Source: Christensenellaceae bacterium
GTDB lineage: Bacteria; Bacillota; Clostridia; Christensenellales; Aristaeellaceae
Length of the DNA stretch: 33,891 nucleotides
Reading direction: 5' to 3'
Assembly: GCA_022510815.1 (NCBI GenBank)
Contig: JAFLST010000002.1
Coordinates: forward strand, 1-33,891
Of this stretch, positions 8,733 through 17,181 are shown in pieces (the first letter of the stretch is position 1; every line of letters begins with the position of its first letter). The position numbers and the translations under genes are program-made. The notes beneath the pieces were generated by a model. That model was not told the DNA's origin and did not search any database. It was given only the letters and a program-made list of their open reading frames with translations.

Positions 8733-10514
8733 ATGAAGATTCTTTTCACGGCAAGCGAATGCGTCCCCTTTGTCAAGACCGGCGGTTTGGCGGACGTGGT
8801 CGGCGCGCTGGCTCCCGTGCTGGCGAAGGAGGGCCATGACGTTCGCGTGATGCTGCCCCTGTACGCGGCCATTCCTGAGGAGTGGACGAGCCAGATGACC
8901 CATGTGGTCGATTTCGAGGTTCAGCTTGGCTGGCGGCGGCAGTACTGCGGCATTGAGAAGCTGGAGAAGGACGGCGTGGTCTGGTACTTTATGGACAACA
9001 AGTACTACTTCGGTCGTCAGTATATCTATGGCCTCGGCGGCGACGAGTATGAGCGGTTCGGCTTCTTCTGCCGCGCGGCTCTCAACGCGCTGCCGCTGAT
9101 CGACTTCCAGCCGGACGTTATCCATGCCCACGACTGGCAGTCCGGCATGGTGCCCGCGCTGCTCAAGATTCAGTACGCGCACCTGCCCTTCTATGCCAAG
9201 ATGAAGACCATCTTCACGATCCACAACCTGCAGTATCAGGGCGTCTTTGGCATCCGTGAGGTGCAGGACGTGCTGGGCCTGGGCAACAGCCTGTGGACCG
9301 ACGACAAGCTGGAGTGCTTCGGCTGCGCGAACTTCATGAAGGCCGCGCTGGTCTACACCGACCTGATCACCACCGTCAGCCCCAGCTATGCCGAGGAAAT
9401 CCAGACCGCCTACTATGGCGAGCGGCTTGACGGCCTGCTCCGGGCCCGGAAGCAGCAGGTCTTCGGCGTCATCAACGGCCTTGACATGGTCGATTATGAC
9501 CCGGCTACCGACAGCCGAATTGCCGCGACCTACACCATCGACAACCTCGCCGGCAAGGCGGAGTGCAAGCGCCAGCTGCAGGAGAATCTGGGCCTGAACG
9601 TTGATCCCAACGTGCCGATTATCGGCATGGTGGGCCGCCTGAGCAATCAGAAGGGCCTCGATCTGGTCGACTACATCATCGGTGAGATCATGCAGGAGAA
9701 CGTGCAGCTGGTTGTCCTTGGTCAGGGCGAAAGCCGCTATGTGAACCTGTTCTCTTGGGCCGAGGGCGAGTATCAGGGCCGCGTAGCTGCGAGGTTCTCT
9801 ATGGATCACGCGCTGGCGCATCAGATCTATGCGGGCTGCGACATGTTCCTCATGCCCAGCCAGTTTGAGCCCTGCGGCCTGAGCCAGCTCATCGCGCTGC
9901 GCTACGGCACGATTCCGATCGTCCGCGAGACCGGCGGCCTGCGCGACACGGTGCTCTCCTACAACGAGTATACCGGTGACGGCAACGGCTTCTCCTTCTT
10001 CAACTACAATGCCCATGACATGCTCAACACCATCCGCCGGGCGATCAGCTTCTACAATGATCAGAAGGACGTCTGGTATCTGCTCCAGCAGCGCGGCATG
10101 AACGGAGACTATAGCTGGACGAACTCCGCGCAGCGCTATGTGCAGCTCTATACGGCTCTGGTGAGCAGTGCGGCGGCGGAAGAACCCGCTGCTGAAGACG
10201 ACGGGGAATCCCACACAGCAACTGACGCACAGCCGGACAGCACCCCTGTCGAGGAAGCCCCGAAGCCCAAGAAGCCCCGCGCACCCCGCAAGAAGAAGGA
10301 GGAAACTCCTGCCGCGGAGGAGGCGCCCGCGAAGCCCAAGCGTACCCGCGCGAAGAAGGCTGTCGAGGAGGCTGCTCCTGCGGAGACGGTGGCTGAGAAG
10401 CCCAAGCGCACCCGCAAGAAGGCTGAGACCGCTCCTGCGGAGACCGTGGAGGGAGAGGCTCCTGTCAAGAAGCCCCGCGCGCCCCGCAAGAAGAAGGAAG
10501 TAACGGCAGAATAA
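8733..10514 (+). CDS. glgA: Glycogen (starch) synthase with Lys/Ala/Pro-rich tail
   Basis: GlgA transfers glucose from ADP-glucose to the non-reducing end of glycogen. The family signature KTGGLADVVGAL lies at residues 15-26 (GT5, GT-B fold). The C-terminal Rossmann half has MPSQFEPCGLSQL and a following RETGGL loop, which hold the catalytic Glu region. The normal enzyme ends near residue 477. About 116 more residues form a low-complexity tail with near-repeats of KPRAPRKKKE and KPKRTR, sharing EEAPKPKK with the GlgB tail. The ATG at 8733 has GGAGG with 8-nt spacing. It is the last gene of the operon, followed by a strong terminator. No glgP is present in the window. Confidence 0.96.
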   Translation: MKILFTASECVPFVKTGGLADVVGALAPVLAKEGHDVRVMLPLYAAIPEEWTSQMTHVVDFEVQLGWRRQYCGIEKLEKDGVVWYFMDNKYYFGRQYIYGLGGDEYERFGFFCRAALNALPLIDFQPDVIHAHDWQSGMVPALLKIQYAHLPFYAKMKTIFTIHNLQYQGVFGIREVQDVLGLGNSLWTDDKLECFGCANFMKAALVYTDLITTVSPSYAEEIQTAYYGERLDGLLRARKQQVFGVINGLDMVDYDPATDSRIAATYTIDNLAGKAECKRQLQENLGLNVDPNVPIIGMVGRLSNQKGLDLVDYIIGEIMQENVQLVVLGQGESRYVNLFSWAEGEYQGRVAARFSMDHALAHQIYAGCDMFLMPSQFEPCGLSQLIALRYGTIPIVRETGGLRDTVLSYNEYTGDGNGFSFFNYNAHDMLNTIRRAISFYNDQKDVWYLLQQRGMNGDYSWTNSAQRYVQLYTALVSSAAAEEPAAEDDGESHTATDAQPDSTPVEEAPKPKKPRAPRKKKEETPAAEEAPAKPKRTRAKKAVEEAAPAETVAEKPKRTRKKAETAPAETVEGEAPVKKPRAPRKKKEVTAE

Positions 10515-10521
10515 GCAAGGG

Positions 10522-10555
10522 GAGGAGACCTTCATATCGAAGGTCTCCTCTTTTT
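10522..10555 (+). terminator. Rho-independent terminator of the glg operon
   Basis: A perfect 12-bp stem (10522-10533 with 10539-10550) encloses a 5-nt loop and is followed by TTTTT, 7 nt after the glgA stop. Confidence 0.95.
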
Positions 10556-10576
10556 ATATCCAGAGAAAACATGAAT

Positions 10577-10613
10577 ATAAAAAGCCGCATCCAGCTCAAT
10601 GGCTGAATGCGAC
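10577..10613 (-). terminator. Rho-independent terminator of the minus-strand PEP-mutase operon
   Basis: Read on the minus strand, a 12-bp stem (10602-10613 with 10584-10595, two G-U pairs) has a 6-nt loop and then TTTTTATA. It lies 18 nt past the stop of the small membrane-protein gene and back to back with the glg terminator. Confidence 0.92.
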
Positions 10614-10631
10614 TGCAGGATGGCGAAGGGC

Positions 10632-10892
10632 TTACTCTTCGTCCTTCTTGTAGACGACGACGTCCTCTTCGACTTCCTTCTTGGCGTTCTCGTCGATGCC
10701 GAGCTTGTCCTGAACCTTCTTCTTGGCCTTGCGCCAGTAGATGCCCACCACCGCGCCGACAGCGATGGCCACGCCAGCCACGGCCTGAATGGCATAGGTC
10801 ATGACGGAGGGGTCGATGTAAGCGCTGGCGTTGCGCATGAGCAGGAGCATGAAGCAGGACGTGAAGTAGGTCATGATGAGGGTCTTTTTCAT
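10632..10892 (-). CDS. Small secreted/membrane protein with YIDPS motif, unknown function
   Basis: An 86-residue protein. Residues 1-24 look like a signal peptide or first membrane segment ending in ASA. YIDPSVMTYAIQAVAG follows directly, then a Gly/Ala/Val-rich membrane helix to about residue 54, a basic stretch (WRKAKKKVQDK) and an acidic C-terminus. From memory, short YIDPS/YIDPG proteins occur near surface-polymer genes in Clostridia, but no function is known to me. The ATG at 10890-10892 has AAGGA about 9 nt upstream; an upstream ATG at 10931 overlaps the preceding stop and lacks a site. It is the last gene of the operon, 35 nt after the PEP-mutase fusion and just before the terminator. 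A role as accessory membrane partner is inference. Confidence 0.8.
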   Translation of the reverse strand: MKKTLIMTYFTSCFMLLLMRNASAYIDPSVMTYAIQAVAGVAIAVGAVVGIYWRKAKKKVQDKLGIDENAKKEVEEDVVVYKKDEE

Positions 10893-10927
10893 GGGTATCA
10901 TCCTTTCATTCAATCTTGGCTTAGCGG

Positions 10928-12940
10928 TCATTCTTCGGGTATCAGACGAATGATATCCTTAAACGGCATCAGGGTTTGATCGGCTTCCAACGCGCGATGA
11001 TGCCGCAGAATGGTCTCGGCGGTCTGCACCATGGCCGGCACAGCGCTGCGGGTGAGTTGGTTGGCATAGATGACGATGTTGATGTTGCGCTGGGCGAACT
11101 CTTCCTCCGTCACCTGATTAAAGGAGGTGGGCACCACGACCAGAGGCGTGATCATATCCTTGGCGCGGAACTGCTCGCAGAAGGAGAAAATCTCATCGGG
11201 CGACTTCTTGCGGGAGTGAATCATGATGCCGTCCGCGCCAGCCTTGACATACGCGAAGGCCCGGGCGAGAGCGTCGTCCATGCCCTTTTCGAGGATCAGG
11301 CTCTCAATGCGGGCGATGAGCATGAAGTCCTTGGTCTTCAGCGCGCGCTTACCGGCCTGAATCTTCTCGCAGAAGTGCTCGATGGTGTCCTGCGTCTGCT
11401 CGACCTCAGTGCCGAAGAGGGAATTCTTCTTGAGGCCGATCTTGTCCTCAATGATGACGGCCGAGACGCCCATGCGCTCCAGCGTGCGGATGTTGTAGAC
11501 GAAGTGCTCCACCAGTCCGCCGGTGTCGCCGTCGAGAATGATCGGCTTGGTGGTGACCTCCATGATGTCGTCAATGGTGCGCAGACGGCTGGACATGTCC
11601 ACCAGCTCAATGTCCGGCTTGCCCTTGGCGGTGGAGTCGCACAAGCTGGACACCCACATGCCGTCGAACTGATAGGTGCGTTCATTCTCCGTGACGACCG
11701 TGTTTTCAGCGATCAGGCCGGTCAGACCGCTATGCGCCTCGATGATCGAGACAACCGGCTTGAGCTTGAGCAGGCTGCGCAGACGACCGCGGCGCATATC
11801 CGGAATGGCAAGCTGGCTGCGGGCGTTCCGCTCCAGCAGGACATGCTCTTCGGTGTTGGAGTAGGGGAATTCGATCAGCTCGCCGCCCTGTTCGCGCAGC
11901 ACGGTCAGCACGGCTTCGCGGATGCTGCTCTGGGGCCCGGTGATCCAGTCGTCGCCATGGACGACATAGTCCGGCTTGAGCGCGCGCAGGTTCTCCTCAT
12001 AGCTCAGCGTCGTCTGAGGAATGACATGCGATACGCCGCGAATGTGCCGCAGCAGTTCGGCGCGTTCCTCAAAGTGTACCAACGGGAAGCGCTTGTAGGA
12101 AGCAACAACTTCATCGGTCAGGACGCCGATGGTCAGTTCGCCCAGCTCCGCCGCCTTCTGAATGATCTTCATATGCCCCATGTGCAGGATATCTGTACTG
12201 AAGCACATGTAAACCGTCTTGGGTTTCTGAGCCAGCGCATGGAGCTGGCTGACCATGTTCTCGAGATCCTCCAAAGTGTCTACCTCCCCGCAAAGTTTGT
12301 CTCCCACATCCAGTGGCGTCAGGCAGCAACGATCTGTGCAGGTATTCAGCGCGTTCTCCGCATAGACGGAGACCTCGCTGCGCTCACAAAAAGCCTTGAT
12401 GGCTTCAAGCCACACCAGCCAGTCCGCTTGACGCAGGTGATACAGCGGCTGCGCGCTGACGGCGTTTTCAAAGCAGCTAATGCCGATCTGGGTGATTCGA
12501 CCATCCTCGAGGACTGCCTTGAAGTCCTTCTCGGGCAAGGGCTGTGTGGTGCTGACGGTCATACGGCTGCCGGGAGCGTGAATGATCGCCTGCAGCACGT
12601 CGTCCGCGAAGACAAGATCGCCGTGCATCATCAGTAGCTCGCTATCCAGCACAGACGCCGCAAGATAAATCGAGTAGATGTAATTGGTATGCGCATAATC
12701 AGGGTTGTTTACGAACGTAACCTCCAACGGCAGATTCAAGGAGGTCACATAATCCTCCAGCATCGATTGGAAGGGACCGGTCGTCATGACCACTTCCTTG
12801 ATGCCGTTCTTGGCGAGCTGCTTGAGCTGACGGGAAAGAATGGTTTCCCCCTCGCTCAACTCAGTCATACACTTGGGATGCTTAGTCGTCAGCGCGCCGA
12901 GGCGGCTGCCAACGCCGGAATTCAGAATCAATGCCTTCAT
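10928..12940 (-). CDS. Trifunctional fusion: sugar-type nucleotidyltransferase / TagD-type cytidylyltransferase / PEP mutase
   Basis: A 670-residue protein with three enzyme domains. Residues 1-235 form a nucleotidyltransferase with NSGVGSRLGALTTKHPKCM at residues 7-25 and a metal-binding HGD at 106-108, like CTP:phosphocholine or phosphonate cytidylyltransferases. Residues 240-370 form a glycerol-3-phosphate-cytidylyltransferase-type domain with H253-x-G-H256. Residues 390-670 form a PEP mutase/isocitrate lyase-superfamily barrel with DGDTGG (470-475) and EDKIGLKKNS (498-507), which fits the PEP mutase pattern EDKxxxKxNS. PEP mutase converts phosphoenolpyruvate to phosphonopyruvate, the entry to phosphonates. 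The ATG at 12940 has GGAGG at 8 nt. It starts 25 nt after the YidC-TagF fusion. No phosphonopyruvate decarboxylase is present in the window. Domain calls are strong; substrates are unknown. Confidence 0.9.
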   Translation of the reverse strand: MKALILNSGVGSRLGALTTKHPKCMTELSEGETILSRQLKQLAKNGIKEVVMTTGPFQSMLEDYVTSLNLPLEVTFVNNPDYAHTNYIYSIYLAASVLDSELLMMHGDLVFADDVLQAIIHAPGSRMTVSTTQPLPEKDFKAVLEDGRITQIGISCFENAVSAQPLYHLRQADWLVWLEAIKAFCERSEVSVYAENALNTCTDRCCLTPLDVGDKLCGEVDTLEDLENMVSQLHALAQKPKTVYMCFSTDILHMGHMKIIQKAAELGELTIGVLTDEVVASYKRFPLVHFEERAELLRHIRGVSHVIPQTTLSYEENLRALKPDYVVHGDDWITGPQSSIREAVLTVLREQGGELIEFPYSNTEEHVLLERNARSQLAIPDMRRGRLRSLLKLKPVVSIIEAHSGLTGLIAENTVVTENERTYQFDGMWVSSLCDSTAKGKPDIELVDMSSRLRTIDDIMEVTTKPIILDGDTGGLVEHFVYNIRTLERMGVSAVIIEDKIGLKKNSLFGTEVEQTQDTIEHFCEKIQAGKRALKTKDFMLIARIESLILEKGMDDALARAFAYVKAGADGIMIHSRKKSPDEIFSFCEQFRAKDMITPLVVVPTSFNQVTEEEFAQRNINIVIYANQLTRSAVPAMVQTAETILRHHRALEADQTLMPFKDIIRLIPEE

Positions 12941-12965
12941 GACGTTATCCTCCGTTACTGGATCA

Positions 12966-14846
12966 TTAGGATTCCTTTGATGCGCGAGCTGAGGCAAGTT
13001 CCTGCAGTCTTGTCAGCAGGTAATCGCCGCCAGCCTGTCCGCTGCTGCCAATGTTTGCGATCAGCCGATCGCGAATCGCGGCGATCTCGCTGGCATAACG
13101 CTCACGATCCTTGATGAGTTCGCGAATGCGTTCCGAAAGTCCTTCAACGTGCGTTGGATCAACGCGGATACCCACCTGATCGCGTAGGGACAACTCAAGC
13201 GGAATAACGCCGAGCCGCTCATATTCGGGGTTGTTGATTTTCGGCGGCGTGTCAATAAAGACTGCAGGCTTCAGCGTCACGAAGGCTGCTTCATAGGCCG
13301 TGCCAGACCAATCCGAGATAACCACGTCAGAGTCGAAGATGGATACGTTGCTGGTGAAGTCCAGCTCAAACTGGAGCTCGTCGCCAACCTTATCCTTGTA
13401 GCGCTCAACAATGGCGTTCATTCGGGCATGGTAACGCTTCATGTATTCGGGATGCGGGCGCACGACGATCTGGAAACCCTTGCCCAAAAGCTCGGACAAG
13501 ATACTATCCACACAGCTGTCAAGAATGTTATCCTTTTGCCACGAGGGTGCAAGAAGCACCTTGGGGCGTTCGCGTTGCACTTTGGGCATGGCCGCATAAC
13601 TTCGTAGCAGCTTTTCAAGCTGGCCATAGCCGCAAGCAAGCAGCTTCTTAGCGGGAAGACCGTAGATTTCCTCTGCCTTGCGAATTTCTTCAAACTGGAA
13701 GGTGCCAATGCAAAGGATGGTGTCGTAGTGGTCTAACGCCCCCTTGGGCAGCACCATGTGGGTGCTTAGCGGATAATGGAAGACATAGACATATTCCACA
13801 TCCTTGCGGGTATAACTGCGTTTGAAGTGGTAATTTTCAAGGTCCGGCATGGTCATAACAACGATGTCGGCATCCATCTTCATCATTAGCGTAATCAGCC
13901 GCTTTTCGCCAATATAGTACGGCTTGATACGTTTTTCCTGCTTGGCCTTTTCAAAGATACCATCCTTAGGGTCACTGGTAATGTAGTGAATGGCGACGTT
14001 CGAGTGCGCCAATACATACTCGATGATATCTTCAAAATACTTGTAGAAGCCGCCGCTCTCCGAGTAGAAAACAAGGTGCTTGTTGGCGATGGAGAAGAAG
14101 CGCTTGTAATCAGCCTTTTCGCGGGCGCGGTCTTCACGGGACGCGTTGCCGCCCAGCTTCTGCATGCCCTCGAGCTCTTTCTTGCTGGCGGAGAGCGCAT
14201 CATAGTCGATATACTTTTTCGGCGGAATCAGCGCGTTGAGAAGAAGCTGCTGCACGATGCTCAGCAGGTTGCTGGCGATCCAGTAAACGCCTACGCCCAG
14301 CGGAACGAACGCGCCGAGAATCAGGGAGATGGCGATGGACACGCCGTTGGTGCTCCACTGACTGGCAGGGGACTGCTCGCGCTGCAGGGGATTGAAATGA
14401 TTCTGCGCGAATCCCAGAGCAAGCGCCGAAAGACCGGCGGCAACCGGCATCAGAAGCGTCAGTCCGCCAGTCTCGGAGGGAACCCATGTCAGCGCAGTTG
14501 TCGCACCCGACAGCCATGTCCGCACCGCGGAAATGACGCCCACCAGCAGAATGAGCTGGATGAACATCGGGATCGTGCTCGCCAGCGCGTGGTAGTGTTC
14601 GCGCTTATAGAGCTCCTGCTGGGCCTCGGCAATCGCGTCGCCGTCGCCGAAGTGGTCGATCTTAATGCGGTTCAGTTCCGGCATGATGCGCACCATGGTG
14701 ATGCCATTCTTGTGCACCCACGCGGAAACAGGGAAAAGCACAACCTTGGTAAGCAGCGTGAACAACACGATGGCCAGTCCGTAATTCCGCATGAGTTCAT
14801 AGCACTGGGCCATCAGCCAAGACAGGGGCATGCTAATTGCTTCCAC
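12966..14846 (-). CDS. YidC/Oxa1 membrane domain fused to TagF-like CDP-glycerol glycerophosphotransferase domain
   Basis: A 626-residue fusion. Residues 1-210 resemble YidC: a first helix with NYGLAIVLFTLLTK, a charged cytoplasmic hairpin, several hydrophobic segments, and a last helix GVGVYWIASNLLSIVQQLLL (184-203) aligning with YFAIYW..SNLLAIAQN of the stand-alone YidC here. The TM1 Arg of YidC is Lys34. After a charged linker (210-250), residues 255-610 match TagF/CDP-glycerol transferases, with APSWQ (433-437), RPHPEY (463-468) and SDWSGTAYE (511-519). TagF enzymes transfer polyol phosphates from CDP-polyols to wall polymers. The C-terminus of YidC is cytosolic, so the transferase would be tethered to the inner face. 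I kept the GTG start at 14846 because residues 1-15 align with YidC; an ATG at 14831 is possible. The TagF half looks lower in GC than the YidC half. It is the first gene of the operon. Confidence 0.88.
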   Translation of the reverse strand: MEAISMPLSWLMAQCYELMRNYGLAIVLFTLLTKVVLFPVSAWVHKNGITMVRIMPELNRIKIDHFGDGDAIAEAQQELYKREHYHALASTIPMFIQLILLVGVISAVRTWLSGATTALTWVPSETGGLTLLMPVAAGLSALALGFAQNHFNPLQREQSPASQWSTNGVSIAISLILGAFVPLGVGVYWIASNLLSIVQQLLLNALIPPKKYIDYDALSASKKELEGMQKLGGNASREDRAREKADYKRFFSIANKHLVFYSESGGFYKYFEDIIEYVLAHSNVAIHYITSDPKDGIFEKAKQEKRIKPYYIGEKRLITLMMKMDADIVVMTMPDLENYHFKRSYTRKDVEYVYVFHYPLSTHMVLPKGALDHYDTILCIGTFQFEEIRKAEEIYGLPAKKLLACGYGQLEKLLRSYAAMPKVQRERPKVLLAPSWQKDNILDSCVDSILSELLGKGFQIVVRPHPEYMKRYHARMNAIVERYKDKVGDELQFELDFTSNVSIFDSDVVISDWSGTAYEAAFVTLKPAVFIDTPPKINNPEYERLGVIPLELSLRDQVGIRVDPTHVEGLSERIRELIKDRERYASEIAAIRDRLIANIGSSGQAGGDYLLTRLQELASARASKES

Positions 14847-15090
14847 AGAACGATCTCTGCCTTTCCGAAAAGTGATGGGGATACCACAGCGAAGCGTATC
14901 TTATGCTCGCGCAGGATACGCACAGAGCGGCAAAATAAAAGCAAGCTCCAAAACCACTGCCTGCCGGACTCGTCCCGGATGACGACATTCAAATCGTCTG
15001 GACAACTGTGCTCGCAGTATGTGCATGGAGCCGACATTTCAGCCGCGTTGTGTATACAAAAATCAACAAATGACGTTGGTTTTTGCAGAC
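14847..15090 (-). promoter_or_regulatory. Long 5' leader of the YidC-TagF/PEP-mutase operon
   Basis: About 245 nt separate the predicted transcription start from the first start codon. The leader can form short hairpins, for example a 7-bp stem GCGTATC/GATACGC near 14890-14920 and CCGGGAC/GTCCGG near 14965-14980. I recognise no riboswitch class and no terminator-like stem. A 74-codon reading frame inside it lacks a ribosome site and is not credible. Confidence 0.4.
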
Positions 15091-15096
15091 GTTTAC

Positions 15097-15124
15097 ATTA
15101 TACTACAGTTTCAAATAAAGTCAA
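15097..15124 (-). promoter_or_regulatory. Sigma-A promoter of the YidC-TagF/PEP-mutase operon
   Basis: On the minus strand TTGACT (15119-15124), a 16-nt spacer and a perfect TATAAT (15097-15102). It is divergent from the rpmH promoter about 65 bp away. Confidence 0.78.
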
Positions 15125-15186
15125 TGGCTGATTGTGCTGGCGTGTCCGCATCAACCTTTTCTTCCGGATAAAATGCGCAATTTGTC

Positions 15187-15215
15187 TTGACAAGCTTTGC
15201 CGGAACCGCTATAAT
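15187..15215 (+). promoter_or_regulatory. Sigma-A promoter of rpmH
   Basis: Perfect consensus: TTGACA (15187-15192), a 17-nt spacer and TATAAT (15210-15215). It is followed by an about 60-nt leader to rpmH. Confidence 0.93.
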
Positions 15216-15280
15216 ATAAAGGCTGTATTGCAACCATTCGGGCATTCGCCTGATTGACCACATGTGAGGAGTGTTGAACC

Positions 15281-15415
15281 ATGTTCCGTACTTACCAGCC
15301 CAAGAAGCGTCAGCGCAGCAAGGTGCACGGCTTCCGTGCCCGCATGTCCACCCGGAATGGCCGCCGTGTGCTGGCCGCCCGCCGTCGCCGCGGCCGCAAG
15401 CAGCTGACCGTCTGA
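15281..15415 (+). CDS. rpmH: 50S ribosomal protein L34
   Basis: A 44-residue, highly basic protein beginning [12 protein letters not shown], with the family core [20 protein letters not shown] and the ending RGRKQLTV. L34 is a small late-assembling protein of the large ribosomal subunit. The ATG at 15281 follows a GAGGAG ribosome site. It lies first in the conserved rpmH-rnpA-yidD-yidC-khpB order. dnaA, commonly found upstream of rpmH in Firmicutes, is not there; the divergent YidC-TagF operon occupies that side. Confidence 0.98.
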
Positions 15416-15448
15416 TCAGGCGGACGCTGACCGCTTGAATCGTGGATG

Positions 15449-15498
15449 AAGCCCGCCCAAAAGACGCCGTTTGGCGCGATGAATAAGGGCGGGCTTTT
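15449..15498 (+). terminator. Intercistronic hairpin between rpmH and rnpA
   Basis: AAGCCCGCCC (15449-15458) pairs with GGGCGGGCTT (15487-15496), followed by TTCC. A smaller GCCG/CGGC-type hairpin sits inside the loop. The T run is short, so partial termination or processing is plausible, which would fit L34 being needed in far larger amounts than RnpA. Confidence 0.55.
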
Positions 15499-15582
15499 CC
15501 TGCATATGGACCCGGACAAGCATGGCCGGGTTACCAGCGGGGCAATCGACGGACCGCGGATAAGGATGGAAAGAATTTTCAC

Positions 15583-16173: not shown

Positions 16174-17181
16174 ATGAATCAATTCTTCAGTAGCATTCTG
16201 CTGGGCATCAACGCGGTGATCGGCAACTACGGCTGGTCGGTCGTGGTGTTCACCCTGCTCATCCGTCTGCTCCTGACGCCGCTGGACGTCAAGAGCCGCG
16301 TCTCGATGCGCAAGATGAACAAGCTGCAGCCTCAGGTCATGGCGCTGCAGAAGAAGTACGCCAAGGATCAGCAGAAGCTGAACCTCAAGACGCAGGAGCT
16401 CTACCGCAAGGAGAAGGTCAATCCGCTCTCCTCGTGCCTGCCGCTGCTGCTGTCCTTCCCGATCCTGATCGTGATGTTCAACGCCATGCGCGGCGTTGCC
16501 AACGAGCAGATGGTCAAGCAGGCCTTCGACATCGTGCAGGGCAACACGCCGGTCATGGAGTCGTGGCTGTGGATCAAGAACATCTGGATGCCCGACAGCC
16601 CCTTCAACGCCACATGGCCTGATCTGACCCGCCTGCAGCAGATTCCCGCGAACATCTGGCAGAACGTCTTCAACAGTCTGCCTGAGACGACGGCGGCGCT
16701 GCTGACCGAGCAGCTCAGCCTCACCGCGGAGAGCTTCACCAGCGCCAATCTGCGCGATACCGTTCAGTCCATCTATGCCGCGATGGCCGCGCTGCCCGGT
16801 TATGCCGATCAGATCGCTACCATCCCGGGCTTCACCTTCAATCTGCTGGTGACGTCCGTGACCGTCTACCGCAACTTCAACGGCCTGTTCATTCTGCCGA
16901 TTTTCTCGGCTGTCAGCCAGTACCTGATGACCATCCTGCAGCCCACGCAGCCCCAGCAGACGACGAACGATAAGAACGGTCAGCAGCAGCCCAGCAGCGG
17001 CGCGTTCATGAAGTGGTTCTTCCCGCTGTTCTCTCTGTGGATCTGCTCGGGCTACTACGCCTCCTTCGCGATTTACTGGATGACCAGCAACCTGCTGGCC
17101 ATCGCCCAGAACCTTGTCATCAACTGGTATCTGGATCGCAAGGATGCCCAGATGGCCGTTTCCGAAGGGGAAGTCAAATAA
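16174..17181 (+). CDS. yidC: Membrane protein insertase YidC (stand-alone)
   Basis: A 335-residue Oxa1-family insertase that inserts and folds membrane proteins with or without SecYEG. The first helix NYGWSVVVFTLLIRLLLTPL carries the conserved Arg (R31) of the hydrophilic groove. A charged cytoplasmic hairpin follows (about residues 38-85), then further membrane segments and the final YWMTSNLLAIAQN helix. An extra non-membrane stretch of about 100 residues (120-220) lies between the second and third hydrophobic regions. The ATG at 16174 follows AAGGAGG with wide spacing. This is the canonical copy; a second YidC-like domain is fused to a transferase at 12966-14846. Confidence 0.96.
   Translation: MNQFFSSILLGINAVIGNYGWSVVVFTLLIRLLLTPLDVKSRVSMRKMNKLQPQVMALQKKYAKDQQKLNLKTQELYRKEKVNPLSSCLPLLLSFPILIVMFNAMRGVANEQMVKQAFDIVQGNTPVMESWLWIKNIWMPDSPFNATWPDLTRLQQIPANIWQNVFNSLPETTAALLTEQLSLTAESFTSANLRDTVQSIYAAMAALPGYADQIATIPGFTFNLLVTSVTVYRNFNGLFILPIFSAVSQYLMTILQPTQPQQTTNDKNGQQQPSSGAFMKWFFPLFSLWICSGYYASFAIYWMTSNLLAIAQNLVINWYLDRKDAQMAVSEGEVK

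Follow-up and report, generated by a model that had tools for sequence, protein, structure and literature searches.

Triple fusions that join PF12804 and PF01467 domains to a phosphoenolpyruvate (PEP) mutase (Ppm) domain have already been described and, by the main text of the paper concerned, account for 42 of 1,485 Ppm proteins (Rice 2019, PMC6697681). The abstract of that paper calls the steps after PEP mutase in phosphonate tailoring still enigmatic, and its main text names LicD-like phosphotransferases and glycosyltransferases in the 2-aminoethylphosphonate (AEP) loci of oral anaerobes, and contains ‘YidC’, ‘TagF’ and ‘TagB’ 0 times. Here, we describe a three-gene set on the minus strand (positions 10632-14846) of a window of 33,891 nucleotides (nt) from a Christensenellaceae bacterium (assembly GCA_022510815.1, contig JAFLST010000002.1), which consists of G1, a YidC fold fused to a TagF-like transferase, G2, a triple fusion of the kind just mentioned, and G3, a small membrane protein. 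In this uncultured, gut-type Clostridia genome, the probable role of the three neighbouring genes is to produce a two-carbon phosphonate in activated form and to link it to a lipid or surface polymer, and relatives in other gut bacteria seem to keep G1 but swap the chemistry that is fed to it. The module offers a candidate transferase for the steps after PEP mutase, together with a motif, H-YPLSTH, that is associated with 2-hydroxyethylphosphonate (HEP) cassettes; it also links the YidC fold to surface-polymer synthesis, and its predictions are testable in a strain recorded as an isolate.

Several known systems resemble parts of this locus, in which phosphonyl tailoring would rely on cytidylyl activation and on a TagF-like transferase built onto a YidC chassis. 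Fom1, from fosfomycin biosynthesis, likewise has a cytidylyltransferase (CYT) domain ahead of PEP mutase and a GDDW motif, and the best Protein Data Bank (PDB) match of the CYT domain of G2, 5x3d, is a structure which we take to be from Fom1; G2 differs in carrying an extra nucleotidyltransferase domain (NTP3) and in sitting with a TagF-like transferase. The teichoic acid polymerases TagF and TarL (3l7m, 8va1) use cytidine diphosphate (CDP)-glycerol or CDP-ribitol as donors, whereas the donor of G1 is likely cytidine monophosphate (CMP)-HEP, and G1 differs from them in its low identity (16%), in giving no match to PF04464 and in its fusion to YidC. Similar to PntC (AEP) and the Lic pathway, a two-carbon phosphonate would be activated by cytidylyl transfer for the cell surface, but here with HEP in place of AEP and a TagF-like in place of a LicD-like transferase. 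With YidC/Oxa1 insertases G1 has the YidC fold in common, and it differs by a lysine in place of an arginine near the groove position and by the 400-residue transferase behind. The domain make-up of G2 is identical to that of the triple fusions in the main text of Rice 2019 (PMC6697681), which also states that Fom1 makes CMP-HEP. In literature searches that covered open-licence PMC papers, none of the titles and opening abstract lines listed described the YidC-TagF fusion or its phosphonate link, and the G3 partner and cassette swapping did not come up either.

G2 (10928-12940, minus strand) encodes 670 amino acids with NTP_transf_3, CTP_transf_like and PEP mutase domains; its Pfam families are PF12804/PF00483, PF01467 and PF13714, with PF12804, PF01467 and PF13714 all above their gathering scores. 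The LicC/PntC-like NTP3 domain (12251-12940; PF12804, 41.3 bits) matches 6pd1 (nucleotidyl transferase/aminotransferase class V; E 1.3e-6) and LicC 1jyk (E 2.3e-6). The CYT domain (11861-12223) carries HMGH (HxGH) and, at 11945-11956, the GDDW motif, which is common to 5x3d and missing from CYT domains at loci with a strong AEP transaminase. Among 30 matched PDB sequences 5x3d, listed there as a phosphoenolpyruvate phosphomutase of 160 amino acids, ranks first (E 2.5e-40, residues 234-361), with ethanolamine-phosphate (8.2e-13) and glycerol-phosphate (9.2e-8) cytidylyltransferases below it. The C-terminal domain (10928-11788) scores 409.1 bits against TIGR02320 (curated cut-off 319.55) and contains EDKIGLKKNS (11420-11449), an instance of the Ppm signature EDKxxxxxNS as given in the main text of PMC6697681; judged by its sequence, this domain is a true PEP mutase. 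A triple fusion at another locus (L037:9972-11972, genome G019) is broken by an in-frame TAG within the CYT domain.

G1 (12966-14846, minus strand; 626 amino acids) is composed of a YidC domain (residues 1-205; 14232-14846; PF02096), in which a lysine replaces the groove arginine of housekeeping YidC (judged by eye), and a TagF-like domain (residues 226-626; 12966-14171). The fold matches of its AlphaFold2 model (predicted local distance difference test score, pLDDT, 90.7) include both TagF/TarL and YidC. PF04464 itself gave no match in G1 (E 0.001) or anywhere in the own genome (E 1), and comparison of the TagF-like half with nine PF04464 proteins by hhalign gave 98.2% and E 3.6e-14. Both TagF-type histidines, which have a catalytic role in TagF (3l7m), are kept as invariant residues of the alignments: H357, in H357-YPLSTHMVL (13749-13778), where the trailing motif marks the HEP-linked G1 group, and H465, in RPHP (13452-13454). 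Both profile and fold comparisons identify G1 as a homologue of TagF. A preliminary description of this DNA had proposed exactly such a set, with a YidC-TagF fusion, a double nucleotidyltransferase-PEP mutase fusion and a YIDPS membrane protein; open reading frame calling and family searches confirm it, the fold match and hhalign result bear out the TagF-type transferase and the TIGR02320 score and signature the PEP mutase, and the cytidylyl activation that it had suggested is likely.

The operon's phosphonate is most likely HEP, activated as CMP-HEP, since a decarboxylase and an iron alcohol dehydrogenase (Fe-ADH) are present in the genome, no AEP transaminase lies over the cut-off and the CYT domain is nearest to 5x3d. 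The earlier remark that no phosphonopyruvate decarboxylase is present holds for the window only, because one is encoded elsewhere in the own genome, on contig C67 (TIGR03297, 446.7 bits, cut-off 312.5), a model for which 0 of 14 control genomes score above the cut-off; in the 20 kb around it no further pathway gene was recognised. Two own genes match the Fe-ADH of locus L039 (205.8 bits for a gene on contig C9, 102.2 for the next), and the C9 protein is 44-45% identical to Fe-ADHs that adjoin G1 and G3 in L148/L149. In this genome, listed as 95.24% complete, no gene scores above 40.7 of 360.8 bits with the AEP transaminase model, in line with the early suspicion that the product may not be AEP.

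Comparison of 47 PEP-mutase loci (45 distinct, as the pairs L101/L156 and L112/L157 were fetched twice) agrees with HEP. GDDW is found in 40 of them, and in the window, and is missing in 7. Fe-ADH genes lie near 25 of the 40 GDDW loci versus 0 of the 7 others, and strong AEP transaminases (>500 bits) near 0 of 40 versus 4 of 7. In L039 the gene order is G3, G1, triple fusion, Fe-ADH, decarboxylase and sulfatase-fold protein, and the first five also form one run in L101/L156.

Relatives of G1 number at least 552 in GTDB species genomes. The best-scoring 80, which are not a random draw, were used as named loci, in which cassettes outside the fetched stretch or past a contig end are missed; they match along almost the whole fusion, and their record titles name Clostridia and related groups, Eggerthellaceae, Atopobiaceae and Saccharibacteria. 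The trio recurs in L039, L101/L156, L112, L141-L143 and others, which answers the preliminary description's concern that it might not be conserved in relatives, and it is one version of a wider module. PEP mutase is present in 17 of the 80 loci, and G1, PEP mutase, Fe-ADH and decarboxylase occur together in 12 (L139-L142, L144, L145, L156, L158, L172, L180, L189 and L195). In 16 of the 80 loci (L184:2023-3837 and 15 more), NTP3 is fused to a CobD-like pyridoxal phosphate domain (LicC-CobD-like), which in L184 scores 183 bits against TIGR01140, below the cut-off of 290.6; this fusion might make a CDP-activated phospho-amine. TagH-like transporter genes are found in 14 of 80 and TagG-like genes in 7 of 80 loci. 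The distribution suggests that gut Clostridia, Coriobacteriia and metagenome-assembled genomes labelled Saccharibacteria share an interchangeable system that places phosphonates or phospho-amines on surfaces. Five such Saccharibacteria-labelled genomes have the YidC-TagF fusion and G3 (L181, L190, L205, L210 and L216), four of them with TagG/TagH-like transporter genes nearby.

The stretch directly behind H357 is variable among G1 proteins and reads YPLSTH in the window. When cassettes within 9 kb of G1 are considered, 12 of 12 recognised cassettes of YPLSTH-type G1 genes are of the HEP type, and such G1 genes are found at 0 of 20 CobD-like and 0 of 4 AEP cassettes (the motif of L185 was read by eye and is not YPLSTH). 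In a tree of 104 G1 genes, built with the motif masked and excluding one over-long G1 (L195), 31 YPLST genes including that of the window fall in one group (Shimodaira-Hasegawa-like approximate likelihood ratio test, SH-aLRT, 86, not starred), which is nested in a starred group of 35 rows with 12 HEP cassettes and no AEP or CobD-like ones. The cassette labels need 9 changes on this tree versus 16.2 after shuffling (none of 200 shuffles gave so low a number). As the YPLST genes fall in one tree group, the association of the window's G1 group with HEP reflects, on this phylogeny, shared ancestry rather than many independent switches. In L144 (5787-10884; NZ_KE159678.1, Anaerotruncus sp. G3(2012)), an inverted repeat (1,137 nt, 95%) flanks a spacer that encodes a tyrosine recombinase, and each of its arms contains the start of one of two divergent G1 genes. 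The arms stop just before the donor motif, which reads APLSFIMTL beside the HEP cassette and GVGSTNLLL beside a cytidylyltransferase gene, an arrangement suggestive of an invertible switch that would select between two surface-polymer operons.

Linkage between G1 and phosphonate genes is also seen across 300 genomes of the family, of which 34 have a close G1, 99 a CYT-PEP mutase and 25 both: PEP mutase is present in 25 of 34 close-G1 genomes versus 74 of 266 without close G1 (odds ratio 7.2, p 3e-7). Compared with genomes without close G1 (Fisher test), it is enriched in YPLSTH-type genomes (18 of 22, p 8e-7) and in other G1 genomes (7 of 12, p 0.04), though these linkage p values overstate the case because the genomes are related. 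Twelve genomes with only weak TagF-domain matches (E 1e-31 to 1e-39) were excluded from the 34; with them, the counts become 35 of 46 versus 64 of 254. G1 and PEP mutase lie <10 kb apart in 6 of the 25 genomes, from five genera, where 0.19 would be expected at random. The 12 weakly matching genomes (e.g. G290:C53:7581-8645 and G250:C92:61804-62862) encode, in shorter frames, proteins 25-34% identical to the TagF half, and 10 of them have a PEP mutase.

G3 (10632-10892, minus strand) is an 86-amino-acid YIDPS membrane protein that matched no Pfam or NCBIfam family. It is found in 65 of the 80 G1 loci and in 7 more as a fusion (72 in total), and lies <1 kb from G1 in 61 of 80. In the fusions (L160, L161, L162, L165, L182, L188 and L201; 5 of 7 Coriobacteriia by record title) it is joined to the N-terminal part of a sulfatase-fold membrane protein, which points to G3 and the sulfatase-fold protein being direct partners. 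A gene for the latter is present in 50 of 80 G1 loci, with PF00884 in both members tested and D320, T357, D563 and H564 invariant in the alignment. The model of the L188 protein (pLDDT 82.4), built from this alignment, resembles sulfatases, phosphonate monoester hydrolases and PbgA/YejM.

In the model that we favour, and that we consider fairly probable from the sequence evidence, the operon makes CMP-HEP and, at the inner membrane face, transfers HEP to a surface-polymer acceptor that is either lipid-linked or membrane-bound. PEP would be converted to phosphonopyruvate by the PEP mutase domain of G2, to phosphonoacetaldehyde by the decarboxylase and to HEP by the Fe-ADH, the latter two encoded on other contigs, and HEP would then be activated to CMP-HEP by the CYT domain. 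The TagF-like half of G1 would move the HEP phosphonate to the membrane-bound acceptor while the YidC half holds the transferase at the membrane as an anchor, with G3 as a small membrane partner. HEP has a free hydroxyl and could in chemical terms be strung into a TagF-type chain; decoration or capping is the more cautious interpretation, because the products of the sister cassettes (AEP or a CobD-like product) seem to end in amines and could not be extended in this way. The preliminary description had also entertained a polyol-phosphate polymer, of which there is no positive sign in this genome and which is not supported.

A number of observations weigh against this model. The own decarboxylase and Fe-ADH genes are both unlinked to the operon, both own Fe-ADHs fall below the cut-off of Phn_Fe-ADH (TIGR03405; best 164.7 of 423.7 bits), and a search of the own genome with the L039 sulfatase-fold member gave no match. 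The identity of 5x3d as the CYT domain of Fom1 is presumed, and the presence of two nucleotidyltransferase domains in G2 is a puzzle, with NTP3 lacking an assigned substrate. Three GDDW loci, two of them distinct, contain a gene that matches a class V transaminase weakly (154-192 bits). The YPLSTH counts are not independent, because the YPLSTH genes form one group, and 6 of 18 HEP-linked G1 genes are without YPLSTH, one of these being the second, outward-facing copy in L144. Among the YPLSTH-type genomes, 4 of 22 show no PEP mutase (one, G121, is listed as 99% complete), and in 2 of the 18 positive genomes (G220 and G325) the match is partial. Finally, a close G1 is missing from 74 of the family's 99 PEP-mutase genomes, and therefore the phosphonate can go elsewhere.

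The last point bears on the alternative that survives best, which we regard as unlikely though worth keeping in view: the donor of G1 might be made by NTP3 (e.g. a CDP-alcohol), and the PEP-mutase product might go to a secreted molecule or another acceptor. NTP3-type domains stand beside G1 in several kinds of cassette, PEP mutase only in the 17 loci noted above, and other members of the genus have NTP3, CYT-PEP mutase and decarboxylase together with G1 not adjacent. However, these genus data also show NTP3 travelling with phosphonate genes independently of G1 (in all GDDW loci but L046, 39 of 40, it is joined to CYT-PEP mutase or lies close by, even where G1 is not adjacent), and the tie of the window's G1 group to HEP cassettes speaks against this alternative.

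A bolder version, to which we give rather little credence, makes G1 a synthase-flippase: its TagF half would polymerize HEP into a teichoic-acid-like chain with a C-P backbone, its YidC half would flip the lipid-linked product, and the chassis would be re-fed with AEP or a CobD-like phospho-amine in related gut bacteria. The flipping idea derives from the finding that E. coli YidC scrambles lipids in vitro, as stated in the text of PMC10491306, and the chain from the hydroxyl of HEP; the seemingly amine-ended products of the sister cassettes argue for decoration instead. It is improbable that AEP is the phosphonate and that G1 attaches it from CMP-AEP, in the manner of known phosphonyl-tailoring pathways. 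PntC-type NTP3 domains can prefer AEP, according to the abstract of PMC6697681, and L122, L185 and L211 do combine G1 with a strong AEP transaminase, but the own genome has no AEP transaminase near the cut-off, the window's CYT domain is of the GDDW type that is never near a strong one in the 40 loci, and no recognised AEP cassette falls in the window's G1 group.

We consider it very doubtful that G1 is mainly a membrane-protein insertase with a regulatory TagF-like tail: it passes Pfam 60KD_IMP (95.7 bits, cut-off 35) but stays just under the cut-off of the NCBIfam YidC C-terminal domain (81.4 of 84.3 bits), the own genome already has a housekeeping YidC (16174-17181), the TagF half retains catalytic-type residues and the neighbours are metabolic. 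Least credible of all is a cluster unrelated to phosphonates in which the mutase domain acts as another lyase from the isocitrate lyase superfamily. That superfamily is indeed broad, with lower-scoring matches to phosphonopyruvate hydrolase (159 of 374 bits) and methylisocitrate lyase (PrpB, 93 of 354 bits), but PEP mutase is the only one of the lyase/mutase NCBIfam models to pass its cut-off, which answers the preliminary description's worry about another lyase activity; the EDKxxxxxNS signature is present and the genome encodes the decarboxylase.

The trio sits between glycogen genes and a divergent rnpA-yidC-jag block (rnpA named by eye). A promoter-like site (15097-15124, minus strand) with TTGACT, a 16-nt spacer and TATAAT, 11 of 12 consensus matches, lies ~250 nt upstream of G1, and a terminator-like stem-loop with a T run (10583-10614, minus strand; 13 pairs, 7 GC) follows G3; both are well placed and good matches, yet such sites are no commoner here than in shuffled sequence. 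Rfam gave no match in 10300-15500. A promoter-like site with 12 of 12 consensus matches (15187-15215) points opposite to the operon promoter, toward the rnpA-yidC block. On the other side of the operon, the glycogen synthase GlgA (8733-10511) ends in a Lys/Ala/Pro-rich C-terminal tail of ~110 residues with repeated PRAPRKKK and PKRTRKK-like words.

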